DNA of 64,000 nt, from positions 1,672,031 through 1,736,030 of the forward strand of contig CAJSYZ010000009.1 of assembly GCA_910574455.1 (NCBI GenBank), read 5' to 3'. The first letter of the stretch is position 1. Each line of letters begins with the position of its first letter. The notes beneath the pieces are model-generated. The model searched no databases and was not told the origin of the DNA. It saw only the letters and a list, made by a program, of their open reading frames with translations. This DNA comes from Trichaptum fuscoviolaceum (Eukaryota > Basidiomycota > Agaricomycetes > Hymenochaetales > Trichaptaceae). Shown one piece after another: positions 2,397 to 38,187 of the stretch. Both the position numbers and the translations under genes were made by a program.

Positions 2397-2409
2397 CATC
2401 AGGGAAACT
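2397..2409 (+). repeat. Left terminal inverted repeat of the giant element
   Basis: CATCAGGGAAACT, preceded by TC at 2395-2396 (possible 2-bp target duplication). It matches the inverse of 38175-38187 at all 13 positions; the 14th base differs. Confidence 0.85.
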
Positions 2410-2658
2410 TCCTTTTGCTTACGGCGACTGACGCGTCCTGACGCGTCCTGATTTGGCTGGCACCTGTCTGAAGGGTCGCTACTTCGTCTGAAAATACACT
2501 GATTGCCTTATCTCACTGAAATAAGGAGTGTTTCAGGATGCAAGCCGTCTCTCAGTGCATCAGAATGCAAGTCAGGATTTCAGTGCTCAAGTGTAATACA
2601 TCAGGGATTGCTTACGGCGGCTGGCGCGTCCTGAAGCTTCCTTAAATGGGTTGAAGCG
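2410..2658. repeat. Left subterminal repeat region of the giant element
   Basis: A second copy of the terminal module occurs about 200 bp inside the end: CATCAGGG, then GCTTACGGCG, then GCGTCCTGA, near 2598-2633, compared with 2397-2450. Short words such as CACTGATT, GTGTTTCAGG, CTGAAATAAG and TCAGGAC recur here and, inverted or direct, in the right end (about 37900-38150). Repeated subterminal words are typical of CACTA-like elements, where they bind the transposase; that role here is inferred. Confidence 0.6.
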
Positions 2659-2907
2659 TTGTCATGCCTGCCTGAGGTGTTGCCTGGCTGCCTGATGGCC
2701 TTAAAACGGCGTTTCAGGACAAAACCAGTGCGTAAGGAGGGAAGCTGTACATCAGGTGGCAAGTCAGACTCAAGTGAGATTTACTACTACTACCACTACT
2801 GTACTCAAGTGAACTTGGACCTCTGTTTTGAGATTTCAAGCTACCTTCATCTTCATGACATCTTGAAAGCAACAGCAAACACCATTGACAACCTCAGTCT
2901 ACAATGA
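2659..2907 (+). other. Small reading frame with weak F-box-like segment
   Basis: A frame of 82 residues whose C-terminal part (LDLCFEISSYLHLHDILK) is reminiscent of the first half of an F-box. It lies within the left terminal region of the element, contains a TAC microsatellite (YYYYHY) and ends with a stop at 2905-2907. It could be a captured fragment or chance. No other support was found. Confidence 0.25.
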
Positions 2908-3038
2908 TCATTCAACGAGAAGCAATTCAATAATAGATACAATCACGATGCTCCTGGCAACTTTTGAAGACAAGAGCATGCACTCAACAATTTACTCAAC
3001 AAGATAACACCGTTAGCACTATTCAAACGGGCCTCAGC

Positions 3039-3896
3039 CTACTCAATATCGAGCATTGGGAAGTGATGGATTACTGTATCCGGTAAGGCCAAGGCATCTT
3101 GATTCAAGACGGAAGCAACAGCAAACGTGCTGTGCGCGTCGATTGCCGCATCTAATAGAGCAGATGCAAGTGAGAAGATGGTCAGCCTGAGTGACAACTT
3201 GAAAAGGATAACTTACAATGGACTTGAGCAGCCGACAGCTCAACTTCGGCCCAATTGCTCATCGTGACCAAGACATCTTTTTCGATGTTTGTCTGCAGGA
3301 GCCTGCCCGCCATCTCCTCCAGCTTTATAAACGGTTGCGGAAACTTGAACCAGAGACGGGGGTTCAGAAGCAGCTGGAGCCAAGTTGGCGTTCTTGGCCA
3401 GAAATCGGGGTAAACGAAGCGCGCCCAATCTGTCAAATCGACACAGGAGGATACGGGAATGTCAAATTTATTCCTGATGCGAGTCGCATCACCTGCCAAT
3501 TAGTTCAGTTATGCCGCATAATGAGAGAAGAAATGGGATTGTCGTACCAGCGATTCCTGCTGACACTTTCCATACAGTTTCATCACCTAATAATTGTTCC
3601 AATCTTGGGGGAAGAGCATTAAGTAGATGAGTCCGGAGGAGGAACACATGTTGCTGAACCGCGAGTTGGATGAGGTCCACGCGATATAGCTCTGGTGAGT
3701 TACTCGCCCATTCAATGTCGAGGGCAACGAAGCGTCGTTCCGGGGCATCCGGCAAGGAAGCATAGATGACGTCTACGGCATTCTCCATCGTCGCGGTGGT
3801 CAGACATACTTCAGGAACAAGAGGTCCGAGTGTATAACTGCGAAGTTGAAGAAGAGGCGTTGGCGGAACCCCCAGGTAGTCGAGGAGATGTTGCAT
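3039..3896 (-). CDS. 3'-5' exonuclease domain protein (DEDDy, RNase D/WRN-like)
   Basis: The model has three exons on the minus strand, 3896-3548, 3492-3217 and 3151-3039, separated by introns of 55 and 65 nt with GT...AG ends. The exons total 738 nt, exactly 246 codons including the stop, giving 245 residues. Motif I reads FVALDIEW and carries the first two acidic residues. After the first splice the product reads AGIAGDATRIRNKF, the usual segment before motif II. Motif III reads VHYAAIDAH, with the Tyr and Asp of the DEDDy subgroup. These features match the WRN/RNase D exonuclease fold, which trims nucleic acid 3' ends. All key residues appear present, so it is probably active. It lies just inside the left end of the giant element and is therefore cargo. 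The start was taken at the first ATG; an upstream exon is possible. Confidence 0.82.
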
Positions 3897-4727
3897 CTGT
3901 TTGTGAAGCTGGCAAAAAGTCAGTGCAGTGATTTTGAGAGGAAATAGAAAGTAAGCACGATTTTTTGCATCCTAGATATCCTCCTTTGTGTCCAAGGAAG
4001 TCTTCGCGCGATGCGTACTCGAAGCACAGCATGGTCAATAAATAGGAGCATGTGGAGCCCCAACAGAATGTGATTAAAGTTCATGGCGAAGGGTTGAATG
4101 GGTGGGTGGGTGGCGGGGAGGGGCGACACCCACTCCGAGTTCACATTTATACAAAGCTCTTGCACGCATTTTTCTGATGCCTTATTCTTCTGGGAAAAGA
4201 AGAGAGGAATCTATCAGTGCATTGTACTATGGCTCGGATAAACCTCAAGCTGAACTGACAGGAGATAAGAAGGATTTCTTCTAGATGACTCGATTATGAG
4301 GCTTCTTTTCATTTTATGCACAAACAAACAAGAAAGTGAGTCAGGTTAACTCCGAAGAAGTCGGGAAGACATAGCTCACTACACAAGAAGCTGTTTCATC
4401 AGCTCTAGAAGGCAAAGCCACGAGTAAGCCGTCATACAATCAGTCATCCCTGGACACAACTCGAAACCGGAACCATGCCGATATGGGAAATGGGATCAAT
4501 GCACCCCAATCCGCTTTGAAAGAAGTAGATTGAATGAAGGCACGTTTCTTGACCTTAGAGCTGGGGGGATTGCGCTGTCGGCCGATAATCGACTTATTCT
4601 GCATATTGAAACCGAGCGATCTCCGTTTCGGCGGCAATGGTGGTGGCACAGAGGTGTTTGTCGTGGAATAGGACATGACTACTTGAACGATATCTAAGAT
4701 GAAGTAATACTTTTTCCCGTTTGATGC
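3897..4727. other. Between exonuclease gene and repeat array, no gene recognised
   Basis: Reading frames here are short and resemble nothing known to me. The sequence upstream of 4728 is unique, and homology with the repeated unit starts at about 4728. Confidence 0.5.
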
Positions 4728-7193: not shown

Positions 7194-7216
7194 AAGCCTG
7201 AGTCCTCACTGGCAGG
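5976..7216. other. Rest of unit A and 3' flank of the peptidase gene
   Basis: Short frames at 6158-6668 (minus) with splice-like signals may be remnants of upstream exons of the BCS1-like gene, but I could not match them. From about 6700 the sequence is dense in short palindromic words (TTCAAGTT, GACTCGGA, CTACTAGTAG). The equivalent stretch in copy 2 is 12318-13557 and in copy 3 is 18660-19876. Confidence 0.5.
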
Positions 7217-9826: not shown

Positions 9827-9844
9827 ACTCTGATTCTCTGCCAC

Positions 9845-10302
9845 GAGTAGAAGTAGTCAACAAAGCAGGACTACCGGCGAAGGAGAAAGTAGGACTCACC
9901 TGGCCATATGCCATTGATTACACCTTCTAGTCTCTGCCTTGCAGATCGAATACTATTTTCCTCGTTGGATGGGCGAAAGCCCGTGATCTGCCGAGACAAT
10001 TCTATCAAATCAAAGCCTTCCCTTGGCGAAGCTGGATATCACCTCATTAATCATTGCTGCTGGTATAGGAGAACGTAGTAGAAAGCTGTAGGACTCACGC
10101 GGAATCGGATTTCTACGCGATGGCTTGGATGATGCCAGCATGATGCTGATTCAAGTTGAAGTCGTTGCTGTTGTGCTTTCGAGTTCAAGATGAATAGGTA
10201 GTACTATTGGGACGAAATGGGAAAGAATGCAGTGGGAAACTGAGTGCGTCGTCTTCAACCAGTGGCACTCAGGCTGGCAGTGCCATGGCACCGGCAGTGC
10301 TT
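9845..10302. other. Upstream region of the peptidase gene (copy 1)
   Basis: The 5' flank of the gene on the minus strand. No gene seen. The equivalent in copy 2 is 16187-16644. Confidence 0.5.
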
Positions 10303-13534: not shown

Positions 13535-13557
13535 AAGCCTGAGTCCTCACTGGCAGG

Positions 13558-19876: not shown

Positions 19877-19914
19877 CGAGTCCTCCCAGTACTACTACTA
19901 CATCCGAGGCAAGC

Positions 19915-20838
19915 TCAGTGGAAATCCCAAGTATAAATGTCTACCTTTTCCATAGAATTTACATAACTCTCCCAGATGCTATCCATGAGCTGTGATACTG
20001 ATGTTGCTATTCGTCGAAGCAAGTGATGGTGCTTAGGTAGTAGAGCCGCTGACTCGGAGTCGCTTCCGTTTCCATCGCTTCCACTCGCATCTGCACTCGC
20101 ATCTGCACTCGCATCTGCACTCGCATCTGCACTCGCATCTGCAATTGCACTCGTAAGATCAGACAGAAACTTGACATTGACATTGCCCGGTTCTCGCTCC
20201 TTGCCCTTAACTGACTTTGACAATTCAACTTGCCGATCTACAACTTTGTCCGGTTCTTGATCCTTGAGCGTAAATGGCACACCCCAGACTACGTGCAGAA
20301 GGGTAAGAAGAGCATTAATGTCAAGGGTTTCTTGAGGTCCTTTCTTGACCATGGAGTAGGGCCCCTCTTCGGAGAGCATATAATCTTTAATCCAAGACGG
20401 GGTTTCCTGGACATCTTCCAACTCTCGGCCATAAAGTTTGGCAGGTGCCTGTATCAGAGCCAGAGCCACAAGATGCCTCATTCGGTCCGTACCCATGGGA
20501 TAATTTAAGTTCGCCTCTGCACGTAAAACAAGAGCTAAAACCGTTTGCGCAGCGAAGGGACAAACTCGTCCATGTTGGTATCGGTTCAGTAAATTGCGGA
20601 ATGGTTCACCGTCTTTGACGACTTCGCCGGGTATGTCGCAAAGAATAATCTGTATTGCGCGAAGGAGACACGATGCTCGCTCACGATGAATGTTGCGCCG
20701 ATGTCTGAGGTGGACCAGAAGTTTCGCAATCTTCGACGTTCTCTTGAAGCCGGGTCGAGAATGCAAGCCTAACGGAAGATCACATATTTGCAGCTCTTTC
20801 AGATACTCCACGTTGACAACACGACCAGCGATAGTCAC
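19915..20838 (-). CDS. Unrecognised protein, C-terminal exon(s)
   Basis: A 307-codon frame that overlaps by 4 nt the end of the frame at 20835-22127, most probably joined to it by a small intron starting GTGACT near 20838 or by a frameshift. It begins VTIAGRVVNVEYLKEL and contains an even helical segment (LLNRYQHGRVCPFAAQTVLA) and a disordered DAS-repeat region encoded by a 12-bp tandem repeat at about 20087-20146. It ends at 19915, only about 40 bp from the end of repeat A3. I do not recognise a family. It probably belongs to the same gene as the two upstream frames. Confidence 0.5.
   Translation of the reverse strand: MTIAGRVVNVEYLKELQICDLPLGLHSRPGFKRTSKIAKLLVHLRHRRNIHRERASCLLRAIQIILCDIPGEVVKDGEPFRNLLNRYQHGRVCPFAAQTVLALVLRAEANLNYPMGTDRMRHLVALALIQAPAKLYGRELEDVQETPSWIKDYMLSEEGPYSMVKKGPQETLDINALLTLLHVVWGVPFTLKDQEPDKVVDRQVELSKSVKGKEREPGNVNVKFLSDLTSAIADASADASADASADASADASGSDGNGSDSESAALLPKHHHLLRRIATSVSQLMDSIWESYVNSMEKVDIYTWDFH
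20087..20146. repeat. 12-bp tandem repeat (codes for DASA repeats)
   Basis: About five units of CTCGCATCTGCA, in frame, encoding alternating Asp-Ala-Ser-Ala on the minus strand. Confidence 0.85.
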
Positions 20839-22127
20839 CTCTCTTTCGTTTCGGACAGACGTTCGAACTTTTCAACGCAAAAGGTCACCAAGTCGCCAAT
20901 GAAGTTGTGTAGCTTGAGTGCGATGGGGAGGGACTTGAAGTCCTGCTTCTTCAAGACTTCTGCGGCTTCCTTATGCGCATCCTCGGCCTCCTCAGGCTCG
21001 GCCTCCTTCAAGTTGTCCCTTGCCTTCTTGGCCTGCCTTTCTTGGTTGATATACATACGTGTTGGCAATTCCTCCGAACCTATATAGTCCAGCGAGGCCA
21101 TCGCATTGAAGCCGTAATCCTCGTCTTCAAGTGATAGAGTGAAGGCAGAGTCTGATTTCCCCGAAAACCCATCTACTTCGGTGCTAACTCGAACACGCTT
21201 TAAGAATTTATTCCTTTCTTCTGAATTGTCATCTTTCGTCGTTGGCATTACGCCACAAGATAGAATCTCCTTATATTTTTCGTTCTTAGGGTTATCGAAG
21301 ATATCGCATAAAGATTGCTGATCCTCAGTATTAAGGATGTTTTGTATCTTCTCCTCCATTTTGATGACCTGCTCTTTTAAGAGCAGGAAGAGGGCGAAGT
21401 TAAATTCGAGTGCGCCGTGAAAGCGCGGAAGGAAGGATTTGAACATAGTGTTGATGCCCATCACGTCCAAGAGATCATAGTTTGCAGGTTGCCCAAGCTC
21501 TGGCACTTCCTCTGCGTTTTCGTCGTACTCGGTACGGAGATTTCCTTTCAGCGTCTCCAAGTCTTCACTCTTTGCAACCAAATTCTGGTAATGGAATCGC
21601 GGACTCGGAAGCTTCGTGTCCGAGTCGGGGGGGTTGTCAGACTGAGCGTATTGTGTAAGCTCACTAGTAGGACCTTTATTCGACATGGTCGGGTCCTCGT
21701 TACGTTTAACGCCACTAGGCTGAGTGTTGGGCTCAGTAGCCTCAGCTTCGCGAAGTTCTGTGTTCGGGGGTTTATTCTTCGGGTTCTTCCCCTTCTTCTT
21801 CTTCGCTGACTTGTTCGTGTTGGGTGAGCCGGCCTCAGGCTGAGTCGTGACGGTGCCGGCCTCAGGCTGAGTCGTGACGGTGCCGGCCTCAGGCTGAGTG
21901 GCGGGCTTAGTCTCAGTCGGTGGGTAGATGAAGGACTTGTGCAAGGTCGAAACCTTTCTGTACAATGCGGATGGTTTCACACCCGTATCGGCGACAGGTT
22001 TTTTACTGGCCGGCTCAATCTTGAACGAATCTAGTTCCGGATATGCGTACCGGAACGCCTTGAACAAGTCATCTCTGGCATTCTCGCACAGAGAGCGGAT
22101 GGCGGTGGCGGCGGCCGCATGCTCCAA
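20835..22127 (-). CDS. Unrecognised large protein, central exon
   Basis: A frame of about 430 codons. Upstream, a good donor (GCTGAA|GTAAGT, near 22195) and acceptor (GGCAG near 22128) give an in-phase splice from a short exon reading YGLVVSAFAE to LEHAAAATAIRSL, so the gene may start at an ATG near 22228 or continue from the frame at 22213-23091. The product has a helical N-terminus, three 9-residue TQPEAGTVT repeats (27-bp tandem repeat, about 21825-21900), a lysine-rich patch KKKKGKNPKNK, a helical middle (FHGALEFNFALFLLLKEQV) and a charged helical C-terminus. No known domain is recognised. It could be a structural or regulatory protein; function is unknown. Confidence 0.55.
   Translation of the reverse strand: MEHAAAATAIRSLCENARDDLFKAFRYAYPELDSFKIEPASKKPVADTGVKPSALYRKVSTLHKSFIYPPTETKPATQPEAGTVTTQPEAGTVTTQPEAGSPNTNKSAKKKKGKNPKNKPPNTELREAEATEPNTQPSGVKRNEDPTMSNKGPTSELTQYAQSDNPPDSDTKLPSPRFHYQNLVAKSEDLETLKGNLRTEYDENAEEVPELGQPANYDLLDVMGINTMFKSFLPRFHGALEFNFALFLLLKEQVIKMEEKIQNILNTEDQQSLCDIFDNPKNEKYKEILSCGVMPTTKDDNSEERNKFLKRVRVSTEVDGFSGKSDSAFTLSLEDEDYGFNAMASLDYIGSEELPTRMYINQERQAKKARDNLKEAEPEEAEDAHKEAAEVLKKQDFKSLPIALKLHNFIGDLVTFCVEKFERLSETKER
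21825..21902. repeat. 27-bp in-frame tandem repeat
   Basis: Three units of GCCGGCCTCAGGCTGAGT plus a spacer, coding for TQPEAGTVT on the minus strand. The core CCTCAGGCTGAG is one of the palindromic words frequent in the element. Confidence 0.85.
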
Positions 22128-22212
22128 CTGCCAGTGCCATGTGAATCATGTAAACGAATGAAGACGCAGAGCAGTAACTTGAACATCAAACTTACTTCAG
22201 CAAACGCTGATA

Positions 22213-23091
22213 CTACCAAACCATACATGTGCTGCACTTGGATGGTAGAGCGATGATTCTCTCGCGGTCGGCCATCTCCGTTTTCAAGTCAATGATTTGG
22301 AGAGTCCTCTTGAGCGATTTGAGCTTCACGTAGAGAGTACTGTTCGGCTGCTCTTCCTGAAGCTCATTCGCGATTTCATTGAGACTTTTGATCACGGAGG
22401 TGAGGTCGTTTGGAAGGTCTGCCGTCAAGCCCTTTTTTAGCTCTTTGATGGCGATGCGCGACTTGGAAACGCTGTACTTCAGGCATTCGTCGAGTTCTCG
22501 TATCAGGTTTTCAACATCTCTCTGCAGCGATTGCCACTTTAACCTTCCCGCCTCTGCCTCATCCCCGCGCTTCGACTCCAAGGACCAAAAATGCTCTTGA
22601 GGAGCGTCGACAGCCATTTCAGCCCTGATCTTTTGGCCCAGATCATAAACGGTATTAGTTTTCCCCGGGCCCACGCGCGCCTCCCAAGTAGCGTCCCCTA
22701 CGTCTTCCTCCAGATGGCGTAACGCGATTCCCGCAAGCGGTTCTGCTTCAACACGCAGTTCCGACATTTGGCGCAAAATTTCTTGTGCAAGCGGAACACT
22801 TCGACTACGGTAGTTTTCCCATGATGACTTTGCTTTCGTCACGAGTTCATCTGCTACTTCAGAGGAATAAGACTGTGAAGTGTTGGTGGAGTCCAACAAT
22901 GCTTTGCCTCCAGAATCCGTTGGTGACTCTAATACTATATCATCTGCTCGCACAACTTTGGTGTGTTCCTTTGGAAGGCGAAACGACACCCTTTCAGGAG
23001 TACTGTCTTGCAGTAATATCCGCCCTATTTGACCATAATGATCATGAGTATTTTGCTGGTTGTAACGATCAAGCAGTATACTACATACCAT
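22213..23091 (-). CDS. Unrecognised protein, N-terminal frame
   Basis: A 292-codon frame read towards the hAT-like element's left side. It contains long helical and coiled-coil-like stretches (ENLIRELDECLKYSVSKSRIAIKE is followed by KSLNEIANELQEE), with a mixed-charge N-terminal part. It is either an independent gene or the first exon of the gene continued at 22127. The phase of the visible splice signals favours a further small intron or a separate start for the downstream frame. The family was not recognised. Confidence 0.45.
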   Translation of the reverse strand: MVCSILLDRYNQQNTHDHYGQIGRILLQDSTPERVSFRLPKEHTKVVRADDIVLESPTDSGGKALLDSTNTSQSYSSEVADELVTKAKSSWENYRSRSVPLAQEILRQMSELRVEAEPLAGIALRHLEEDVGDATWEARVGPGKTNTVYDLGQKIRAEMAVDAPQEHFWSLESKRGDEAEAGRLKWQSLQRDVENLIRELDECLKYSVSKSRIAIKELKKGLTADLPNDLTSVIKSLNEIANELQEEQPNSTLYVKLKSLKRTLQIIDLKTEMADRERIIALPSKCSTCMVW

Positions 23092-23589
23092 ACGGACTGG
23101 TTATTTCGGACTCCGTTGCAATCTCTATGGCAGGTGACAGCCCATTGAGTAGTACTGATTGATGCTTGAGCCCTATTTAATAACATTCAAGATGCCAGTG
23201 ATGACCATGCCTGTGAGTGATGAATTACTATTAAACCGTATAGTACTACACACCGAAGGCCTGCAATGCTTCTTTGATTGTGCTAGCCTTAGCCTGAGGC
23301 TGAGTCTTGTCATCATGCAAGTCTACCGCAGGACTAGTTGTCATTGTTTATTGTGCAGTTAGACTCGGAGTCTGCCAGCCTGCCAGTGAGTGAGCCTGAG
23401 TGACACGGCGATGGGCACAGGGTAGAGCATGACACGGGTGCACCTGCAGGTGCACCCGGATCCGTGATGCGCAGGTACCTGCGCAAAAAAACTGATACCT
23501 GGATCCGACCCGGAACCGTGGGAAACGGATCCGGGTCTACCTGGACCCGTTACCTGCAGGTATTGCAGGTACCTGATGCAACCCGCAGG

Positions 23590-24925
<1,336 letters not shown>

Positions 24926-25254: not shown

Positions 25255-26440
25255 TCAGGGTCGCAGCCTTGGCGTAGTAGTATGTACTACTATGTAGTAC
25301 TTGTTACAATTTGAACTCAGCTTATCACTGATCATGATGCTGTCTCAGATAGTATTAGTAAGTCGGAGCCTCAAGTTCCGAGTGGCGCTAGGACCCCGAG
25401 GAGTCCGAATAGTACTACTACTACTAGTAGTATCATACTCAGGCTAGGCCTGCCGGAAACTCTTGAATGGATGGGTTTTATCCGGACAAAACACTTCAAC
25501 TTGAACTGTGGATTCTCTTACTACTAGTAGTACTAGAATTCGGAAAAGAGCGGGACTGGGAACTTTTAGCGCAATTTTAGTCGGACTGCCGGGCAGGCCT
25601 TTGGCAGTCCTTTCATCCGGACTCCGTACCCGGGCCATGCCTTCAAGTTGGTTGCATCATGATCCGGGGATGGTTACTATCCAAATCCGATAAAAGCTTT
25701 GGCAGGCCTTTAAGTTGTGCCGGGCCACTGCCGGGGTCTGCCGCCTCCGAGTCAACTTCAAGTTGAACTTGAAGTTGCCACTGGCAGTGGTACAAGCCTT
25801 AGGTCGGAAAAAAGAATCGAAGTTCAGGATCGGCGCCCGGTCTTTCAGAGAAGAATTCAGCAACAACTTGAATACTACTACTAGTATAGGGCATTGTTAG
25901 CCAAACTTGCAACTTGAACAGGCCTCCGCACTTTTTGGGGTGATTTAGCTGGAAATTTACTTCACATTTTTCAAATTTTGATTCCTTCAAATACTATCTG
26001 GAATGCCAGTGTACTACTACTACTACTAGTAGTAAGCCTAGAGCCTGAGCTCAAACTTTTCAAAGAACAATTATCCGGACAACTTGAACTTGAAGGCCCG
26101 GCATGATCATCTGCGCCGGTGTCACGGCCCGAGCAGTAGCCTGAGTATATAGTACTCAGGCTAAGGCTGGCACTGGCAGTACTAGTACTAGGGCTTCAAC
26201 TTGAACTTGTTCAAGTTCAAGTTGCTGGGGTCCTGTGCCACTGTGGCACTGCTGCCACCAGTGCTGGCGACCACTGGGCAGCCTGCGGGTATGGTTTCAA
26301 CTCAAGTTACTACATAGTAGTACCGACGGGGCCACAGCGGCGTGTGCTAGTGATCCCCCTGTTGCCGTATAAGTACTCACTGAGCTGAAAGCTCGAGCCC
26401 ACTTTCACTATTCAAGTTGCTCTTTGACAAGACTCTGAAA
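25255..26440. other. Word-rich intergenic DNA of the giant element
   Basis: No gene. It is dense in the recurring palindromic words (TACTACTAGTAG, TTCAAGTTCAAG, CACTGGCAGTG, GACTCGGA, GCCTGAG). It forms the 5' flank of the gene that starts at 26441. Confidence 0.6.
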
Positions 26441-28372
26441 ATGTCATACCTCTACTTCAGCGATCCGGATGACCATGATACAGACTCGGACACTGGCAGT
26501 ACTACTAGTGACGACTCGTATTCAAGTTACGAGGCGGATCCTCTTAGTGGTAGAAAAACTCAAATCATCTAACATCGAGCGCAAGACTCAATTGAAGACA
26601 GATGGTCGTCTACTTTCTCTAGACTTTCACGGCTCTACAGGCTTCGTCGAAGGCGATCTCCTCAAACGACTTGACGTGTTCGCTAAGAACTCGAACGTCG
26701 GAATCCAGGCCATTGACACACTCTCCACGAAGATAGTTAACGAGATACGGCATAATCATTATCGCCGTTATGCGACCCAGAATGACAAACTTCTTCTCTC
26801 CACGGTGGCCATCTTTAAGATAGTGGTCCAACAGACAAGACGAGCCCTTCATGATTACCAAGAGGAGCTAGACAAAGTCAAGAAAAGGCAGTTGTTGATA
26901 AACTTCCGGGCAGTACGGAACTTGACTAATCTCCTCAAGTACATGGGCGACTTGAATGATGTGCACCTTACAAACGTAAGTCATAAATTCATTACAACTC
27001 GGACTTGCCACTGGCAGTGTACCAGTCGTGATAATATTTGTACTGACTTTCTTCTCCGGTGATTGCCAGTGGACGTCCGCTGAATTTGCTATTCGGAACA
27101 CTGTAGGCGATATAAGGTTAATGGTGGTGTTGGCGCTTGCGGAGCTCCTTCCAAGTTCTGAGTTCATATCGCGAGAACGCCGAGAGTACTATACTAGGTT
27201 CATCAATGGTACCGGATGGTCGAAATTTCTGGATCGCGTAACGGTCTTTTATCACTCACACTACGTGTTCTATCCAGTTGGCTTAAAAGGGGATGGGAGG
27301 TGGATACACCAGAATTCCATATTCTCCTGCTTTCAGAACAAGTTCTTCGAATCCTCTTACCTTAATGATGCTAGTACGCGTCACGGTCGAGGCATGATTC
27401 GACTTCCGACGGCGATCCAAAACTCTACTACCAATGACAACTACTCTCACCCGCACGCCATGGAATTTTCGCTGCCAGTGTTCACATCAGGCCTTGACTC
27501 GTCCACGTCGACAGTGCAGCGCACGGCTTCCGGGCGTGACCCTAATGACTCGCCAGTGGTAATAGGGGGTCCTGTGCAAGCGTTGAGGTTCTTCGTCCCT
27601 CTGCTTATATGGTCGTACAACGCGTGCAAGGAATGTTTGGTTTTGTTAGATGCCCTCATTGCACAAGTTCATCAGGAAGTCTCCATCCCAGACTCATTGG
27701 CAGGTTCGGCATCGGCAGATCGAACACCGAAAATGAAGGTAGAAGTTGATTACTCCGCTGTATTTCTACACGGTTCAGCGGTGGATGTACGCCACCGATT
27801 GGCACGCTCAGGCGACCTCGTCAAGCTTGTTTCCGTCATCGACGCTGTGGAGAAGGAGGATGCTGTTCAGGATACCACAAAGCCATCCATCAAATTGTAC
27901 ACTGTTGGTGAAGTGGGCAAGATGGAGGATGCTGTACACCGGCAGAAGTTCGAGGATGAACTACGCAAAGAACGCCAGACCTTCCTGAACAAATTCAATT
28001 TGATCAAGAAATGTCTATTAATTCTTACGGACGACCTCTTTATGCACGTAATCCTCCATCTCAACGTTCGACCGACAGTACAAGAACGGGCGGGAGTAGT
28101 CGCCAGCAACCCTCTTGTCAAGGTCCTCGAGGGTGATTTTACGTGGCTTAGTCCAGAAACTTCACCAATCCGATGACGATTATGACTTCAACCGCGAGAA
28201 CCTTTTTTCGACAGAGCGCGAGATGGATTCTTTCGTCTCCACAGCAGTTGGTAGTGAATCAATTTTTTGTGAAGACTACAAAATCTTACTAGCGCTTCTC
28301 GAAAACCTTAATCCTCTTGGAGACGACTCTTCGAACATCAGCTCGGGACCCATTCGCGATGGTAGTAACTAG
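26441..28372 (+). CDS. Unrecognised ~600-residue protein of the giant element
   Basis: The first ATG (26441) opens a short acidic frame (MSYLYFSDPDDHDTDSD). The main frame continues in another phase from about 26550, so a small intron or a frameshift lies at 26510-26580. An intron at about 26976-27068 (ACGTAAGT to TTGCCAG) and another at about 28096-28156 (61 nt) link three open stretches in phase. The product is largely helical, with a basic patch (LDKVKKRQLLINFRAVRNL), a hydrophobic stretch (VQALRFFVPLLIWSYNACKE) and a charged C-terminal helix. No known domain was recognised. It is convergent with the transposase gene. By size, place and sequence style it is a companion of the genes at 19915-23091. 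Confidence 0.5.
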
Positions 28373-28951: not shown

Positions 28952-31900
28952 TTATCTACTTTCGTACAATGTTTCGTGCATGTGCATGTCTACAAATCGG
29001 TTAACATAGAATCTATCATAAAAGTCCAAGGACTCCTCGGGTGTCAATGACTTTGGAGGACATTCATCACCCTTTGGCACCCCAAGGAGGTGAGCCAAAC
29101 GAAAGATATCCCCTATACCTATCACAAATAGCTTCGGAGCCTTGCAGTCACGGTGGTAGTAGTGACGTCTGCCACTGGCTTTCACACCAGGACAGGTGGT
29201 AAAGGTGTCTAACTCATATTCCGGCTCGACAATCCACATACTTGTTTTTTGGTCAGGCGAGTCTCCAACACGCTTGAAAAATTGGACGAGAGCGCATTCC
29301 TGACGTTTCAATTTACTAACGGCAAAGGAGAAAAGAAGCATAACTCGGGCAACTCGCATTCCTGCAAACCCCTTTTTGCGAGTATTAACTCGAACAAGGA
29401 CTGCATCACGTCTTGCCTTTCCGCGCCAAGAGGGATTGGACCTGATCACCTCCCTCATTGCTTGTTCTATAGGGATCGATTCGCCACGGAAGGCAAAGAA
29501 AGCGGTGGCTGAATGGAAAATTGAAAAGTCATTGCTTATGTCCAATTCAACTGCTGGTTCGGCTCTGCCAGAGGAGCCCCTTAAGTTGGAGTTGTGCTTC
29601 TCGTACTTGTTGAATAAGTAGTCTTTAATGAGCTGTGGGAGTTTTCGGAGCTCTGGATGGCCTTTTATCGCCGCAAGAGCGTTAAGTTGCTTAGGGTACA
29701 CCGTACTGGACTCTGCAAGGATGATATCAAAGAAGTCAGATGTGCAGCACCAAAAGCATGGGTTACTAAGTACTAATACTTACGTGACTTCGAAGCCATT
29801 AACATCAAGCTCAAAGGGTCATTTCTGCCACCCAAGCGCATCTGGCGTTCAGCATGTAGTATGTCATGAACCGCAAGATGCTGAGGCCCATGCACTAAGC
29901 TTTCGGGATCTTCCAGGTCTGCAATTTCGTTGAGTTCATTATTGCCCACAATGTCATCGAAGAAGTCCTCTGTATCATCAGCTGCGCCAGCTACGGGTGT
30001 ATCATGATCATGGTGCATCTGCTCCTTCCGAATTTGGGTCCTCTCAGCCTGAGCGTCATCTGTCTCCGACTCTGACATATTCCTGCGCAGAACATCTTGC
30101 AAAGCTCTCCATGAAGCCTCAGCCAGAGGACTTTCCAGCATTCCACGCCTCTTGAAGTCTGCCCTCGATGCAATAAGTTTACTGAGACGTTGGTTTGCTG
30201 TGATCATCTGACCCAAAGGATCATTTCTGTTTGAGCGTCGCCATGTTTCCTTCACCGCGTAAATGTGTTTATTCTCTGTGATCGATGAACACAGACCACT
30301 CGGTGCAGCGAACAGAGGGATCATTGTAGGATAGTGGATCATGGCATGCTGTCGTGGAAGTGAGAAGTTATCCCGGATGCCTTTAGCTATATATTTGCCG
30401 ATAACGGTGAAAGTGATCCAAAGAGGCTTTGATTTGATCAAGAGTTGAGACTGTAATCGTGTACCGACGCACAAGGTAACAGAAGTCAAGAAATGCACTC
30501 AATGCGCGAATCATATCATCGTGCGCAATGCCCACAATAGCCGGAAGATACACCTAAGCAAGTTGCATCAAATATCAGCAAACCACCGCCTCGAACAAGA
30601 CAGAAAGGTCATATACTTTCATAAGTGCCTTAGAATCATTGCCTGTCCATTGCTTGAAGCCTCGGCCTTCGGGAAATCTGCGAAGTCCAGGAAAAGGAGC
30701 AGCAACTCTGATTCTACGCGGAGATTAGCAGCAGTATTCACATTAAACAACTTGTGAAAAAACAGCACCTTTTATCCACAACGTCCAGCTCTGTCGTGGT
30801 CAAGCTCTGGCAAATCCACTCAACAAGGTGATCCTTAAATACGCCTTTGATCATTTGGTGCAGTAGGTCCGGAGAAATGAGATCGCATATATCTGCACGT
30901 GGAAAGTCATTGGTGAAGGGCTATGGAGCATAGTCGTGGTCAGCTCACATTGTATGGAGAGTTTAGAACACTTACCACAATATCTTGGTGGAACCCATAC
31001 TCTTTTCGAACCGTTGCTCTACTTATGCTGTTGTCATCCACCTGTTCTATCAATCGTTCGTGTAGCTCTTTTGTTCGAGGATTTGTAACAAATTCCGGAT
31101 TATCTAGATTCTTGTGAGGTGATGTACATCTATATGGCCACAGTAAGTCATTTTCTCTAACTCGAGTTGGATGTGATTTTTGGAAAGGACAATACTTACT
31201 TGCAGCACCATCCAGTGCATATTGCGCATAGACTCACCTGTTCCGGATAATCGGCTATATACGAGCCGAGTCCGAGAACTGACCTACGCAAGTGACCATC
31301 AGGGCACCGGAGAATGGTTTGTTCATTGTTTATGGACATTGCTGTCTTCAGTGGACTCAAGATTCTTGATATAGATGAATGAAAGATTTGATGTCTAAAG
31401 CGACGGAAGTCATCTGACTTTTCATACTGCCGTTCAGCTGCAAAGCATCAGAACTTGAACACAAATGAATAGCTCAGTTTTTGACACACACTCTTTGGTA
31501 TTGCTAGAAATGCTACGAGCTGGACTGTATTCAGCTTTTGGGACCGCCGGGCCTTGTTAGATACATTTCCTATTGAAAGATATAACGGATAATATTCGTT
31601 GTTGCCAGTTCCAACGGAGACTGTTGTCTTGTCGCTCCCTAAGATGACCGGAACGAACATAGACCCATGGACCGCTTTATCTTCGGCGAAGATTTTGTTC
31701 TAAGTCAAGGATTATCAATACACTTCTTCCAACTTTGAATGCTGCATGATTCATGACTTACAGCCTGTTCCCAAGCAAAGTTTCCGGACATGTAGTTTCT
31801 GAAGACTCGTTCTTTGTTGTCATCAGAGTCCTCCTTCGGCTGATACTCACGAAACGGGACATAGTCGAATTCGCCTTCCAAAGCTGGATTATCCACCAAA

Positions 31901-32930
31901 TTCCGGATCACTTCCAAAGGATCCCGATACCAAACATCATATTCTTTCCTCTTCCATGACTCGGTGTTCTCATTTGTCACCTTTTGGCCATTGTCGTCTG
32001 TGTAGAAGTTACTAAAGGATTTCCAAGACACATCACCGACTTTCGTAGCATCAATGACGTTATACATTTTTTGCGCGTCTCCATTGAGTAGCGTACTAGT
32101 TGAACCCAGATCTAAGTCATCGTCAGGCTCTGTCGCATCCAATTTGGAACATCCGCAAGATTTTACATTCTCCGCCGCCTGAATCAGCTGATAAGCCTTC
32201 ATGATTCCCAGAAGCTTTGTTATGTTCCCAGCAGACATTTGCTCTTCTCGATAGAGAAAATCTGCGAGCTCAAAATCTGCTCGACACGAATAGGGGAAAC
32301 CAGTCATTTGACGCAGATTCGTTTCGCGGAGCGGGTGAGTCTTCATATTCTAAGAAGTTCCCTTCTGTATCGCATGGAGTGGCTGCACAATGTTTGGTGT
32401 CAAAATGCTACAGTAAACCGGGAACAATTAATTTGGCGCGCACCATTCAAGTATCTGTGATACACCTTCAAGTTATCCTCACTCTCCTTATAATCTCCAA
32501 TGTCGGAATCCAAGTCTTCAGAACGGCCACTGTCACTTCTGGTGACAGAATGGGACAGAGAATGAGGTCTGTCCAAATCTTGAAGCAGCTCGTCTCGGCC
32601 TATACTGAGCATCGAGATATCCTGTGTAAGCATGGAAATATCGTAATCGTAGGAGTCAGAGCCGCTCTCAGAATGACCCTCTGTTGGAAGTTCGGACAAC
32701 CTCAGGAGAGCTCCAAGTTGAGGACTTGGAGCTCGTATGGGTCGAATAGGTGACGATTCATATTCGTGACCACAGGCAGAAGAACTTGCCAAGAATGACG
32801 TCGGATGAGCTGAATATTCATGTCTTGCTCTTCCAGATTGACTCTTGAACGTCCTACTACAGCCGGGCAAGGTGCATCGAATAGTTGGTGGAAAATGAAA
32901 GGGATCGTGCTTTTTCCGTGTCGCTGGCAT
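28952..32930 (-). CDS. Plavaka-type transposase (CACTA-like), apparently complete
   Basis: A many-exon gene on the minus strand. The N-terminus (from the ATG at 32930; an in-frame ATG at 33173 is possible) has a C2H2 zinc finger (CTLPGCSRTFKSQSGRARH), the usual DNA-binding start of Plavaka proteins. Next come ELADFLYREEQMSAGN, then YDVWYRDPLEVIRNLV with FDYVPFREY, then VPVILGSDKTTVSVGTGN and YYPLYLSIGN, all family blocks. Around 30650 the sequence reads RFPEGRGFKQWTG, then DNFSLPRQHAMIHYPTM, SSITENKHIYAVKETWRRS and, at the end, IRSNPSWRG and MWIVEPE. The exons joined without a visible stop wherever I checked splice sites, for example a phase-matched intron near 32385-32445. The enzyme should cut at the element ends and move it. 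It is the only transposase found and the likely mobiliser of the 35.8-kb unit. It is divergent from the gene at 33209, with about 280 bp between starts. Confidence 0.88.
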
Positions 32931-33208
32931 CAACTTGAATGTAACCTCAGTAGTAGTACACGTTGACAATTGGGACTCACAGCTGAGCCTCACTGGCACT
33001 GGCAGGCTGCTAGCACTGGCAGTGACTCGGACTCGGAGTGCCACTGGCAGTGAACTTGAACCTGAGTTAAAATTAGTCATAGAGTAGTCACGGTAGTAGT
33101 GGGCGTAAATTTTCAACTTGTCTAAGATAGACGCCCCCGCCTCCCTGATCTTGAACTTGCACCTTCGACACATCTTATCATCATACAAGTCTCAAAACAC
33201 TGCACAAA
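32931..33208. promoter_or_regulatory. Bidirectional promoter region, transposase / companion gene
   Basis: Two genes diverge from this ~280-bp stretch. It contains a dense cluster of the palindromic words (CACTGGCAG, GACTCGGACTCGGAGT, CCACTGGCAGTG, ACTTGAAC). A frame open through it yields only biased residues encoded by those words, which favours the start at 32930. Confidence 0.5.
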
Positions 33209-36200
33209 ATGTCAACTCAAAGACAGACAAGAGCTAAGAACAGCGAAAAGCACCCCGGAGCAGTCGTTGGACAACTCAGAACAAGACGAACACAGGAGGA
33301 GATATTGCGGGAGAAGGAAGAAAAAGAGAAAAGGAAAGTACGGCAGGCAGAGAGGCGGGATGAGGCATTGAAGGAGAAGGAAGAGAAGGAAAAGCAGAAG
33401 GAAGAGCGGGCAGCCTTCCGCAGAGCTGCGGCCCAGCAAGTCGCGGTTGCGAAAGAGAGGAAAAAACTCGCTGCGGAGCAAAAACGGGCAGCAAAAGAAC
33501 AAGAGGCAGCTGACAAGGTTCGCAAGAAGGTGACTGCAGCAGAGAACCAAGAAGCAGCGATGCTAGAGACCGTAGAGCTTGAAAACAACTTGTCAAAGGC
33601 TCTTGAGACACGCACCCAGATGGGCTCAACAGTGCCCAAACTCACTGGCAAACGTGGACGTAGAAAGCCAAAAGGCGAAGCTAGCAGTAAGTCTTCAACT
33701 TTAGATCAGTGATGACACAGATCATTTGAACTGGCATAAACAGACTCGAAGAACGATGTTAAAGACGTATCGGGTTGTGAAGATGGACACAACGAAGACT
33801 TGGATATTCGTGAGTAACATTGCCTATACATTTTCAGATGATCTCAAAGCTTGGAGGTTGAACACTGTGACTCACCTTAATGCGAAGCAGCGAGTATGGA
33901 TGAGCCAAACAGGGAGCCTGCAAAAAAGGCTAGGAAAGAAGATTCCAAAGGTGAACTTCCATTTCGCACACGTGTGCAGACCGCAAAGATGTCCAGGTCT
34001 GCCGCCACCGTGACTCCCAGCGACGCATTCTTTCACGCTCCTGCAGGACCGAACGAGAGTCTTTCTGGTGAAGAAACGGACATAATAGACTCGCCCGCTA
34101 CGTCAAGGCGGAACGACAAGACAAAACGCCCTGTCAGGGCGCTTCGCAACACAGATGATTCCACTTTCATTGGTGAAGAGGGTGGAGGTCTTGAGGTGCC
34201 AGTGGCAGGGATAGACTCAGAAAGGATCAATTTGTGAGTTTGAGGTTTGAATCTTGCATTGCGTCTGAATCAGTATCTGGTACTGTCAAGTCGATGTAAT
34301 GGTGAGTGAGAAGCTTGATTTAGACTCAATTATTAAACTCATACTAGTATGATCATCATCATCCCGACTACCTACTCAGGCTACTACTACCGTGACGCTC
34401 CCGGGCCGAGACCCAACTTCAAGTTGGAAATCCTTCACCTGCAACATTGACGCTCTTGTCTTTGCTACCACTATATTATGACCTTGCTGACGCAAAGCTG
34501 CACCAGACACACCGTCGAATTGCCAGATGATGAAAACTTAAGTCCCTGGGAGGATGAAGGAGAAACAATAACCCTTACAAGCTATCATGGTGTAAAAAAT
34601 AGCACAATCAGCGTGCAACAGAAGGCACATCTTGTCGATTCGGAATCAAATGTTGTGAGTTGACGGAGCATTAGAATGGCAGATGCAGTCTGAATAACTT
34701 GTTTATAGGGCGGAAGCGATCCGAAGAGGCTAACAAGGCCGGCTCAAGCTTGTGTGAGTCCGACTGATTACTGTTCGATTCATGTCAGTTGCTCCATGAC
34801 CGTTTGTTCATATTCCTTCGTTATTGTTTATCTGCCAACTGCCGTCTCATGAACAGGATGGAGGTAGCAGCAACGTCAACTCGAAGAAAAGGAAGTTATT
34901 GCGTGACACTCTTTCCGGGTCGCAGGTTTCAACGGTAAGCGATGTCATATCATTCTACATTTTTTCAATCTACTGAGTAATCCCTTCCCGTACTCGAGGA
35001 TAAGAATAACAAGATAAATCCAGGTGGACAGGTGAGTACCAGACAGTGATCTTCATGGTACATCCTTCCTTCATTGCTTACTGAATTGGTATTTTGATAG
35101 GATGCAAACAAGAGGACTGCTATTTCGCAGCTTAGCGCACCGGTAAGTCTATCTTATCTCAACTTCTCTCGTTCCCCCCTTATTTATGGTTGTAAGGTGC
35201 AATCACTAGCCTTGGAACCCCGTGTACAGGTATGTGTGAGTGTCGATGCACTGTAGGCTCACTTCCGGTGCTCTCCTGTGGCAACTATTCGTTTCCTTCT
35301 TCACTTCAAGTTGAGCGCTAATGTGTGAATATGAATAGGACATCACAGTCACAAAGAACGGAAAGAGGAAGTCGCCACCAGACACCGACTCTCAGGTTAA
35401 TGTGGTAATTCTTCTACCTTCACGTGCAATGAATTCCTTCATTTTATGTTTACTTATTTTAAACCATCTCAATAGGCTAATAAGGCTGTCAAGATCAAGA
35501 AGTCATTGTTGACTGACATGGACACACAGGCCGGTGCCACAGTAAGCGTCAATTCTATGGTAACCGGCATTTTAAGTTCGTATCTGATCAGGCGGAAAGG
35601 ACTTGAGTAAGAAGAGGAAACCCTCTGACATTCCTTATCGGCCTGAGGCCGATATGACAGTAAGTGCTTCTTTTCGAGCTGTTCACTTGCCACGGATAAC
35701 AGCTTTCTGACGTGCTGCAGCCGGAGCTTGGATCCGCTACCTCTAATCGCAAGAGGCAGTCGCTGGTGGCTGATAATGAAGTAAGTGAGAGTCGATTGAT
35801 ACACTCTAAATGTAGACATTCACCTTTTTTTCTTACTAATAGTCTGGTGGTCGAAAGATGTCGTTAGCACCTCGAGCACCGTCCCTTGCAATGACGAGAG
35901 CATCCTGCACCCCCGGACCCGAAGTGTTAGTGACTGGGGCTTATCAAGGTCATCGCAAAGTCTCTCGGACTACTAGCTCAGTTTGTCGAATCAAATTCAT
36001 TTCTATGACATATTTTGCTGATTTACTTATATGCAGACATCAGTGGGACTTGAGGACAAGGATCAAAATGAAGGAAGGGAAGGATCTCGCGTGCCAGGCA
36101 GGAAAAGGGCGACGAACCAGTGTCTCCCTCCCGGTACTCAGGCAGGATGGACTCATATTCTATTACCTTCACTATTTCGCGCAGTTGGAAAGTCCGTCAC

Positions 36201-37578
36201 ACCATGGCAAACTCCGGACAATAAGCTCATCAGCTCACTGTGGGGGAAAGTGTTTGATTCTGTGGAATTCAGTTACGAAACTCAGTTCGCCGATATCTGT
36301 TCTCTAGTTGAGTCAATCTAACTTATCTCCAAGTCACCTTTACCAAATTGAGATGCGATCCTTGTATTTCAGGTGGCCCAGAGATGCTCTGATAGCTGGC
36401 GCAAGAAACTTTTTGAGAAAGCTGAGCAATCAGTTGCAAGTTTTATCAGCGGCGAACAATCAAAATCAATGCGAAACGAAGCAATTGTGAAGACGTTGCA
36501 GTCGCTAGTTGACAAGAAGAAAGCCGAACCGTTTCTATGGGAAAGCTGGTATAGTATGGAGAGGGTAAGTAAAAGAGTATTTATTGTCGCATTTTGTGTC
36601 CATGCATTGACCCTAATTGTACAGAAGCAAGGACTGTTCTGCTCTGACCTTGTGGTCTCAGTGTTGTCCGTACACATTGTCTTGGCCATGGGTCGGCATA
36701 AAATACTGGACAGAAACACCATAGGAAAGCCTATCGGTGCCCTCGCCCTTGCGGCAACAGCGGTATCTACTTTTTTCAGCACTTATATTGTCCTTATTCG
36801 CTGATCTTCCCATGGATAGGTCAAGGTTGCCATTGATAAACAGGTGGCTCGGTTGCAAAATATCAAAGAAGAACTTGGCGGCGCTGAGTGGTATTTCACT
36901 AGCGCTCTGTGGCAACCTCATACGGACGACTATGTTAACTTGTTGTCAAATCCCTCTTTCTTCACTGAATCAAACTGGGAAAAGGTTCGATCCCGCCTCC
37001 TAGCTTACGATGCCAGTACAGATATCGATACGAGAAAGAACACCGAACTTGTTGGATCGGGTATCACTGGCAGGGACTTCTCCTTGTATTTTGACGTTAT
37101 AGATGCAGATTCGACCTGCGAAAAAGCGTATGACGAAGACGCTGATAATTGGGAAGACGGAACCGACGGAACCGACGATAAGGGCGAAGAGCGTGAGGTG
37201 GCTGAGTATAGAGGCGAGGTGGAAGGTGATGCAGAGGACGAGCATGCTAATGCTGAGGGTGACGACAACCTGAGTGAGAGCGGGGACGAGGGAGTTGACA
37301 AGATTGAGTGCAAGGGCGATGATGACGGCGAGGGCGATGACGACGGCGAGGGCGATGACGACGGCGAGGGCGATGACGACGGCGAGGGCGAGGACGACGG
37401 CGAGGACGACGGCGAGGGCGAGGGCGATGACGAGGGCGAGGACGACGGCGAGGGCGACGGCGAGGACGAGGGCGAGGGCGAGGGCAAGGACAAGGACAAG
37501 GATTTAGGTGGAGATGGTGATCATGAGGAGGACGACGCTTCAAAATGGGATTCGGCTACGGACTGCGTAGACTTCTAA
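33209..37578 (+). CDS. Transposase-linked nuclear-type protein with micro-exons and acidic tail
   Basis: The first exon (33209 to about 33686) codes for a highly charged coiled coil (EKEEKEKRKVRQAERRDE) ending with KRGRRKPKGEAS. Between about 33720 and 35860 follow roughly a dozen small exons of 8-75 nt with good GT...AG ends. Many carry a KRK-type basic motif (SKKRKLLRD, NGKRKSPPD, SKKRKPSD, SNRKRQSLV, ANKRTAIS). From 36031 comes a conserved-looking region (WTHILLPSLFRAVGKSVTPW, then LWGKVFDSVEFSYETQF, SWRKKLFEKAEQSVASFIS, GRHKILDRN and IGALALAATAV). It may be related to the DUF6532-like proteins common in agarics, but this is uncertain. The last exon ends in a long acidic DDGEG repeat. Basic motifs plus an acidic tail suggest a chromatin or DNA-associated partner of the transposase. 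It is divergent from the transposase and probably co-regulated. Confidence 0.6.
34708..35842 (+). repeat. Array of micro-exons with related KRK motifs
   Basis: Visible exons, each preceded by AG and followed by GT: about 34708-34750, 34859-34933, 35024-35031, 35101-35142, 35197-35229, 35339-35406, 35476-35541, 35591-35659 and 35721-35780. Several share the plan Lys/Arg cluster, then Ser/Thr-Asp, then Gln. This suggests repeated exon duplication. All are within the gene at 33209-37578. Confidence 0.6.
37315..37497 (+). repeat. Acidic DDGEG coding minisatellite
   Basis: Imperfect tandem units built from GACGACGGCGAGGGC, in frame, coding for the acidic tail of the gene above. Confidence 0.9.
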
Positions 37579-38174
37579 GGGCAAATCAATCACTAGTGAG
37601 CCTCTTCTTTTCGTTTCTGTCCGTGCGCTCAACATTATATTACCATCGACTCGCAGAGCAGTCTTCAATTCTGCATGTTCTTTGGCGTAGCAGTAGAAAC
37701 AAAGGCACGGCAGCGAAATGTGGCCTGCCACTGCCCGTCACGGAAGAGGTTCAGGATAATGTCGTGGCGGATCCCATGATAGCGACTGCTATGCTTAGTC
37801 TTGCGTAAATGACTGATGTACTTGAACGCTGAGGCACTGATAGCTACATAATGTTGTCTTATATATTTCTGATGCAATGAAATACTTGGAACGTTCTTAT
37901 GCACTTAGACTCTTGAGCACTGCAATTTGTCTTACAACACTTGTCTACTGCTGTAATTAAAGGATGATACACTGGAGCACTGGGGTGCAGAATGCCTGAA
38001 ACACTTAGAGCACTGATTCAGCCATCTTTCCTTATTTAAGCCAGCCCGCACTTATTTCAGCCAACTTGTCCTGAATAATGGGAGGACATGCATGAATAAG
38101 TAAAGCTTGCCTTATTTAAGACTTCAGTCTCTCAGGACGTTTAAGTAACACTTAAGTCACTTTCAGCAGAAAGT
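37579..38174. other. Right terminal region of the giant element
   Basis: No gene. It is AT-richer and contains repeated short words (GAGCACTG, CACTGATT, CCTTATTTAAG, CAGGAC) shared, partly inverted, with the left end at 2410-2760. It ends at the terminal repeat. Confidence 0.55.
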
Positions 38175-38187
38175 AGTTTCCCTGATG
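38175..38187 (-). repeat. Right terminal inverted repeat of the giant element
   Basis: Reverse complement of the left repeat, followed by TC at 38188-38189. The host F-box frame resumes at 38190. Confidence 0.85.

Follow-up and report, generated by a model that had tools for sequence, protein, structure and literature searches.

A large PlavakaB-type DNA transposon in Trichaptum fuscoviolaceum carries a hypervariable gene that is probably a recognition or counter-silencing factor

What kind of element has split an otherwise open gene of Trichaptum fuscoviolaceum, and what does it carry? In the stretch of 64,000 nucleotides analyzed here (the window, to which all positions refer), an element of 35,791 bp occupies positions 2397–38187. 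Its ends are a perfect 13-bp inverted repeat, with an L-type left end (2397–2409, plus strand) and an R-type right end (38175–38187, minus strand). Within the 64-kb window, the repeat CATCAGGGAAACT is found at these two places and nowhere else, compared with a mean of 0.01 occurrences over 100 shuffles; the exact ends described in an earlier note on this DNA are confirmed. The dinucleotide TC is present on both sides (2395–2396 and 38188–38189). To the left lies the 3′ part of an F-box-like gene (1154–2396, minus strand) and to the right its 5′ part with the start codon (38190–38356, minus strand); a paralogue with 42% identity is found at G000:C5:7160579. When the flanks are joined with a single TC, they give 484 stop-free codons, or 469 counted from the first methionine, as the earlier note had reported for the two rejoined halves. 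The joined frame is at most 427 or 429 codons if both TC copies are kept or both dropped. The proposal of a transposon inside an intact F-box gene thus stands for the frame, which is otherwise open, but the F-box label is weak, as PF12937 scored 21.2 bits, below its cut-off of 24.3.

The F-box-like frame alone cannot fix the length of the target duplication because treating ATGTC as the duplicated sequence still leaves a long frame (483 codons). The choice between TC and ATGTC was settled in favor of TC by seven other complete elements, which are flanked by TG, TA, CG, AA, TA, CT, and CG. With the window copy included, the 2-bp duplications are perfect in 8/8 complete elements examined, which rules out ATGTC, and all eight carry CATCA..TGATG termini. 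The homology edges of other copies were also compared: eight left-end loci (including the window) and two right-end loci stop at the same base, and the flanking 25 bases at these loci carry different letters. No mutual blastn match at E 1e-3 was found among the 300-bp flanks of the eight complete elements.

The element encodes a transposase gene of several predicted exons (approximate limits 28955–33000, minus strand) matching PF18759 at 31705–32349 with an E value of 7.6e-25 and 88.3 bits against a cut-off of 26.3; its N-terminus, read by eye, resembles a C2H2 zinc finger. A genome search with PF18759 also matched the window at 31184–31714 and gave 165 matches in this genome and none in the 14 control genomes. 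Passages of Kojima 2025 (PMC12730594) give PlavakaB elements CATCA..TGATG termini and a target duplication of 2 or 3 bp. PlavakaB transposases are further characterized by DDE catalytic residues accompanied by C(2)C and H(3–4)H motifs. Because the transposase, the ends, and the 2-bp duplication match this published group, the complete transposon at 2397–38187 is, as judged from its sequence, a large copy of the PlavakaB DNA transposon family, a known mushroom type. The earlier note was right about the transposon, its exact ends, and the open gene, but had expected a new, different kind of cargo element, which the PF18759 transposase, the termini, and the duplication contradict. The large size and variable content would fit a Starship-like or otherwise new class, but next to no credence can be given to this reading in view of the same three features and of the scan of 24 element ORFs, in which no Pfam match to a tyrosine recombinase (the Starship captain) was detected. 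The scan covered 17 of the 19 ORFs of at least 180 aa (the other two being repeat copies) and seven shorter ones; it likewise gave no match to a TET/JBP dioxygenase, the gene that marks TET-positive Plavaka elements, although short exons could escape such a scan. A literature search for large basidiomycete elements with terminal inverted repeats returned nothing useful.

Searching the same genome for copies with the same ends, as the earlier note had suggested, revealed many of them, a large number being near-identical: there are 171 L-type (left) and 338 R-type (right) ends. Sixty adjacent end pairs span 13.7–63.4 kb each and together cover 1.77 Mb, nested insertions included, and 35.8 kb is thus an ordinary size within the family. 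Part of the length of the window copy comes from a 6,342-bp block present in about 2.4 tandem units. The first unit (4728–11069) is followed by a second (11070–17411) that differs by one substitution and two one-base gaps, and by a truncated third (17412–19876) that is identical to the second over 2,465 bp; this internal repeat is very recent.

Such near-perfect 6.3-kb tandem units are difficult to assemble, and the same contig carries the right flank a second time, at a distance of about 108.6 kb. When 801 bp spanning the element end were compared with this second flank, 796/801 positions were identical, with no substitutions and five one-base gaps, all in or beside short single-base runs. 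Two further samples matched it at 100% (49725–50025) and 99.6% (63740–64000). Two samples of the expected left end and left flank of a second element, assuming the same length, gave no match to the window. Either the assembly has duplicated this flank falsely, or the duplication is real and very recent. It is very unlikely, however, that misassembly of a long repeat produced the whole 35.8-kb structure, since the exactly restored F-box-like frame and the intact TC duplication would not be expected from a chimeric join, and 43 adjacent L/R pairs of 13.7–59.9 kb were found elsewhere.

Several other genes lie within the element. The left gene consists of two neighboring ORFs (3185–3971, minus strand; 105 and 160 aa), matched in the copies S17b and M20 (92–100% amino-acid identity) and R20a (52–62%); it has no Pfam match, and the left module gives a BCS1-like impression by eye. 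An ORF of 879 aa (7217–9856, minus strand) may be protease-like, a label given by eye from its GDQGDSGS motif and without library support: no Pfam match over cut-off, no PDB match, and no database relative at E 0.001 were found. In the genome, 17 of 59 rows cover its residues 1–875 or more, 16 of them stop-free, and a second copy in the window has a frame broken upstream (13558–15978, minus strand, 806 aa). Gene Y (19915–23100, minus strand) is read here as three ORFs (19915–20871, 20835–22145, and 22213–23100), the second being part of one longer frame in other copies. With 20835–22145 as query, nine other copies were matched over residues 1–435 with open frames of 609–758 aa; a tenth, 81% identical, has five stops. 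A broken polyubiquitin-like sequence (24341–24925, minus strand; PF00240, E 6e-57) has stops in its longer frame. The right gene (33155–37578, plus strand), matched in S17b, M20, and R20a, has many short introns, as its open-frame pattern suggests, and the four exons scanned gave no Pfam match over cut-off. Adjoining the transposase gene is gene X (26439–28369, plus strand), whose predicted second exon (about 27031–28369) has its frame broken near the end. The window copy has frame breaks in gene X, in gene Y, and in one of its two copies of the 879-aa ORF; some of the one-base breaks could be sequencing errors.

Gene X, which lay outside the view of the earlier note, is hypervariable. Its protein identity is only 18–76% between copies whose left and right modules are about 93–99% identical, and about 18–45% between major classes. 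Profile searches of a protein database returned three and two proteins only: two of them, P0001 and P0002, hardly differ from the gene X of the M20 and window types, and the third, P0003, shares 56% identity with the M20 type. Pfam gave no match above a cut-off and PDB no match at all, and structure prediction gave no usable model (mean pLDDT 36).

Within allele groups, gene X changes mainly by amino-acid replacement. Omega was at least 1.9, with p < 0.005, in five of nine overlapping pairs, which share sequences and are not independent: 3.1 (p 1.1e-5), effectively infinite (p 5.7e-4), 2.8 (p 2.8e-5), 1.9 (p 0.002), and 1.9 (p 0.003). Three shallow pairs reached p 0.07–0.13 only, and the deepest, L068-L061, gave 1.1 (p 0.55). 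About 19 replacement and no silent changes separate R20a from L060, and R20a differs from L058 by 128 replacements in 1008 sites versus 16 silent changes in 294. Mismatches at the three codon positions numbered 62/53/26, 77/70/56, 9/12/6, and 6/10/3 in four pairs. The transposase is under purifying selection, with omega of 0.24–0.46 in three deeper comparisons and mismatches predominantly at the third codon position in 9/9; the shallow R20a-L058 comparison gave an effectively infinite omega from very few changes (p 0.13). Taken together, the sequences show gene X as several deeply diverged allele classes with mainly replacement changes within classes. Its protein changes far faster than the other parts of the element do, suggesting a molecular arms race.

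A decaying or non-coding gene X, simply drifting or mutating fast, would also be diverse, and the broken frame in the window copy and the shortened longest frames in S17a, S17b, and S17d (319, 358, and 262 aa) point that way. However, many other copies keep open frames of 434–468 aa, and 88 of 97 matches, several of which are pieces of one gene, are stop-free within the matched stretch. All gaps in the four pairs checked are multiples of three, with no out-of-phase column. Drift would give an omega of 1 instead of the observed 2–3, and kappa (1.4–3.4) is unlike that of repeat-induced point mutation. Decay is thus highly improbable, since gaps that keep the frame and an omega above 1 largely refute it, and repeat-induced mutation or drift was ruled out as the source of the diversity by omega, kappa, and gap phase.

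The copies themselves are recombinant mosaics, whose left part, center, and right part have different histories. S17c is closer to M20 over the left 4.7 kb (0.13% difference, versus 1.54% from S17a) but closer to S17a over the right 9.15 kb (0.95%, versus 4.57% from M20), and trees of the left and right parts disagree. S17b and S17c are 95–100% identical over 17.2 kb except for one valley, located at gene X (element positions 5701–7800). In 500-bp steps away from gene X, divergence between the window and M20 declines clearly (12.2, 8.0, 8.2, 11.2, 6.6, 5.0, 2.4, 1.6, 0, and 0%), but with one later step of 3.4%, and between S17c and M20 it goes up once more on the far right, with one step of 8.6%.

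Recombination might also have brought together central parts of Plavaka families that separated long ago, and the diversity of gene X would then reflect family age without any arms race. The low identity between major classes agrees with this, as does the silent divergence of the transposase, raised beside gene X as linked old lineages would give: between the window and M20, the two exons closest to gene X have dS of 0.19 and 0.28, compared with 0.12 further away, 0.03 in the N-terminal exon, and 0–0.01 in the right gene (the S17b values of this gene at 33215, probably affected by a frame-shift, were left out). However, age alone should give an omega at or below 1, and over the short time spans that separate members of a class, replacement exceeds silent change and gaps stay in frame. 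We therefore regard this explanation as rather unlikely.

We favor, with a probability of about 0.8, a PlavakaB element in which mosaic copies carry a diversified, replacement-driven gene X, probably acting as a recognition or counter-silencing factor of the element. From its family, the DDE-type Plavaka transposase would bind the CATCAGGG/CCCTGATG ends, excise the element, and reinsert it elsewhere via a 2-bp staggered cut; such a cut inside the F-box-like gene would have produced the TC duplication. Rare gene X alleles may have an advantage when the common ones are recognized by the host's factors or by resident copies, and recombination between copies would put new alleles onto the shared ends and transposase. 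More specifically, and only tentatively, gene X might be the transposon's own self/non-self factor, with common-allele copies repressed by the host or by same-allele residents and rare alleles escaping. The family would then resemble a population with a mating-type or incompatibility locus, in which frequency-dependent selection keeps many old alleles while the shared ends and transposase are reshuffled around them.

If the role of gene X is confirmed, it would provide a countable and testable case of adaptive protein evolution within a cut-and-paste transposon, and a route to asking what silences mushroom transposons. Large Plavaka elements are understudied despite the 1.77 Mb spanned by 60 end pairs alone, and large fungal mobile elements with variable content need not be Starships.

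EnSpm/CACTA elements have plant members. Passages of Kojima 2025 describe for them a recognizably related transposase and mostly CA..TG termini, but with 3-bp duplications and CAC..GTG ends instead of the 2 bp and CATCA found here (PMC12730594), which rules out EnSpm/CACTA proper. PlavakaB shares with our element the CATCA..TGATG ends, the 2-bp duplication, the PF18759 transposase, and a fungal host, whereas a hypervariable, positively selected gene and a mosaic structure are absent from the corresponding passages (PMC12730594). In Marasmius oreades, Plavaka was likewise defined by PF18759, and the transposable element library reaches about 42 kb, the element not being named, but the genome is 44 Mb versus 59.1 Mb here and no gene X is described in the relevant excerpts (PMC8290104, PMC9674265). 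Starships are also large fungal elements with variable content but, in the sections concerned, are classified by their tyrosine recombinase captain (PMC13066641, PMC12134995). A literature search for transposon genes that are hypervariable or under positive selection returned nothing useful. The coiled coil of LINE-1 ORF1 undergoes adaptive evolution. According to extracts of two reports (PMC7449397, PMC5940361), it is an unusually fast-evolving region of a transposon protein and in this resembles gene X; LINE-1 is a retrotransposon, however, whereas gene X is an entire gene, belongs to a cut-and-paste element, and has allele classes swapped between copies.

The exact ends claimed in the earlier note at 2397 and 38187 were borne out, as the window contains CATCAGGGAAACT two times, once beginning at 2397 and once in inverted orientation finishing at 38187, with 0.01 occurrences expected. 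The interrupted gene rejoins into 469 codons with one TC retained, the frame being lost with both or neither, but its F-box label proved weak (PF12937, 21.2 bits, below the 24.3 cut-off). A paralogue of this gene on contig 5 is 42% identical and stop-free. Seven further elements were taken whole and compared with the window copy; all eight start with CATCAGGG, finish with CCCTGATG and are bordered by a perfect 2 bp target duplication, and no match was found when their 300-bp flanks were compared mutually. Eight left-end loci, including that of the window, and two right-end loci, all found by similarity, stop at the same bases.

In the 59.1-Mb genome (12 contigs), the left-type end pattern was detected at 171 places and the right-type pattern at 338, while the reversed patterns were found at none. 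With one mismatch allowed in each and three positions distinguishing them, the two patterns cannot have counted any place twice. Supposing that every end pairs, the genome would contain approximately 250 elements. Pairing drew on 69 left-type places (of 100 listed) together with the full 100 listed for the right type, and covered contigs 1 to 4 and a portion of contig 5. Among these listed matches, at least 60 adjacent end pairs were recovered (median length 26.7 kb). Of the 60, 43 are left/right pairs with lengths of 13.7 to 59.9 kb, and the other 17 are right/right pairs measuring 20.0 to 63.4 kb; 49 of the 169 ends were left without a partner. Pairs on contigs 1 to 4, which were listed fully, cover 1.55 of 23.18 Mb (6.7%), nested insertions included. 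Scores were obtained for 40 of 342 candidate left ends and 40 of 272 candidate right ends, each of which was 99-100% identical along all or almost all of its length. The right/right pairs (G000:C1:2214805-2234988 and 16 others, about 20 kb or longer) form a sister subfamily with right-type termini at both ends, and its type of gene X was apparently also present inside two left/right pairs, C4:112794-139766 and C3:4486759-4500428. At both G000:C7:299144-299196 and C5:1992323-1992368, two like ends in the same orientation lie only 24-34 bp apart, either because one copy inserted beside another or into its end, or because an end was duplicated.

The right flank (38188-64000) is present again about 108.6 kb away, from G000:C9:1818854 onwards; an 801-bp sample had no substitutions and five one-base gaps, and samples as far as the end of the window also matched, while two samples from the expected left side of this second copy did not match the window. 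This is probably a false assembly duplication, so the numbers of copies may be a little too high, and not much weight should be put on one-base frame breaks confined to single copies.

The window copy is long partly because a block of 6,342 bp (4728-11069) is repeated. One substitution and two one-base gaps separate the second unit from the first, and the third unit, truncated to 2,465 bp, is the same as the second, indicating either a very recent amplification or, in part, an assembly effect. An ORF of 879 aa (7217-9856 and 13558-15978) carries a GDSGS motif. Of the 59 rows that matched this ORF, 17 are full length, and searches of Pfam (over cut-off), the protein database and the PDB gave no relative. 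The minus strand of 4700-6700 resembles, by eye, a decayed BCS1-like AAA ATPase with Walker A- and B-like stretches, and three pieces of it gave no match to Pfam. Many short palindromic TACTAC/GTAGTA runs (10305-10470, 16647-16810, 25410, 26012, 28848) and, by eye, dispersed CACTGGCAGTG motifs were seen, and these are possible structural or binding repeats. The region 19876-28914, without a DNA match of at least 150 bp in the M20, S17 and R20 family copies, contains gene Y (19915..23100, minus strand), a broken polyubiquitin-like sequence (24341-24925) whose longer frame is interrupted by stops, and the window allele of the hypervariable gene X (26439..28369, plus strand). Repeats of 33 and 27 bp related to the polyubiquitin-like sequence lie near 24025 and 24884.

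Gene X adjoins the 3' end of the transposase gene (about 28955..33000), on the opposite strand, and its versions are very unlike in copies that are otherwise nearly identical. Between the copies S17c and M20, the left module (5.1 kb) is 99.3% and the right module (9.3 kb) 93.1% identical, whereas the middle is alignable only in 65-70% patches. When 19 versions of the protein, a number of them incomplete, were compared in pairs, identity was 86-100% inside sub-alleles, 63-82% from one sub-allele to another of the same type, 36-45% between the L068/L069 and S17 types, 21-33% among the remaining main types, and 18-22% to the window type. At least 97 genome matches were obtained with the M20 version and at least 104 with the window version, although some rows represent fragments of a single gene and the two lists may overlap; 88 of the 97 M20-query rows are stop-free inside the match. 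Searches for gene X gave no known domain (sub-cut-off matches only), no PDB relative and no usable structural model.

The surroundings of gene X are mosaic. Over the left 4.7 kb, S17c diverges by 0.13% from M20 and 1.54% from S17a, but over the right 9.15 kb by 4.57% and 0.95%, respectively, and the trees of the two parts conflict. Per 500 bp outward from gene X through the transposase, the window diverges from M20 by 12.2, 8.0, 8.2, 11.2, 6.6, 5.0, 2.4, 1.6, 0 and 0%, with a single later step of 3.4%; on the left side the boundary is abrupt. S17c versus M20, however, climbs back to 8.6% at the far right in one step, and the outward fall is therefore not general. S17b and S17c (17.2 kb) are 95-100% identical except for one valley at gene X (element positions 5701-7800). 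The picture resembles a set of old alleles at gene X amid recombining surroundings. Thirty boundary loci were fetched, of 40 scored among 300 candidates. The window cassette was present in 18 (98.7-100%), with a transposase 3' end 97.7-100% identical, and absent in 12 (11 in a cluster, one apart), where this end was 86.4-87.0% identical.

A pairwise codon model was applied to nine overlapping pairs of gene X versions. Omega was 3.1 for R20a-L058 (p 1.1e-5), effectively infinite for R20a-L060 (p 5.7e-4), 2.8 for L060-L058 (p 2.8e-5), and 1.9 for both L061-S17c (p 0.002) and L061-L065 (p 0.003); the other values were 2.6 for L064-L065 (p 0.08), 3.2 for S17c-L065 (p 0.07), 3.9 for S17b-L061 (p 0.13) and 1.1 for L068-L061 (p 0.55). 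The adjoining transposase exons of the same elements hardly differ (R20a-L058, t 0.014 versus 0.366 for gene X). None of 12 shallow transposase comparisons departed significantly from omega 1, including R20a-L058, also effectively infinite with very few changes (p 0.13), and three deeper ones gave 0.24 to 0.46 (p 0.03 to 2e-7). At the DNA level, in four gene X pairs, all gaps were multiples of three with zero out-of-phase columns, and mismatches at codon positions 1/2/3 (62/53/26, 77/70/56, 9/12/6 and 6/10/3) were more frequent at the first two, whereas transposase exons had the usual position-3 excess in all nine comparisons. These patterns in gene X are therefore poorly explained by drift, decay or a transition-biased mutator. 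The selection result does not depend on one-base frame breaks.

The simplest reading of a transposon gene that changes by amino-acid replacement is a conflict, whether against a host silencing factor or among copies carrying the same ends. We favour, at about one chance in three, the inference that gene X encodes a recognition or counter-silencing factor. Gene Y may be a second variable gene. Its ORF (20835-22145) lies within open frames of 609-758 aa in nine other copies (residues 1-435 matched, stop-free), and a tenth is 81% identical with five stops. Relatives at 34% identity (C1 near 1.13 Mb, C2 near 4.46 and 5.10 Mb, C7 near 3.09 Mb) lie a few kb from gene X versions 53% identical to that of the window.

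The ORF 31705-32349 (minus strand) matched the Plavaka domain PF18759 (E 7.6e-25), which had 165 matches in this genome and none in 14 control genomes; among 24 element ORFs scanned, no tyrosine recombinase or TET/JBP domain was seen. Judging from the family, movement would be by cut-and-paste. The published Plavaka accounts, in the parts available, deal with how Plavaka is classified, with TET genes and with family counts. A literature search confined to main texts, largely of non-subscription journals, gave no paper describing a Plavaka gene that is hypervariable and positively selected. In the accessible text of the Marasmius oreades work, the transposable element library includes elements reaching about 42 kb (PMC8290104, PMC9674265). 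Plavaka is grouped with EnSpm/CACTA, Mirage, Chapaev and Transib in the available portion of Kojima 2025 (PMC12730594), where PlavakaB families are described as ending in CATCA..TGATG and duplicating 2 or 3 bp of target. The element agrees with PlavakaB in both its termini and the length of its duplication.
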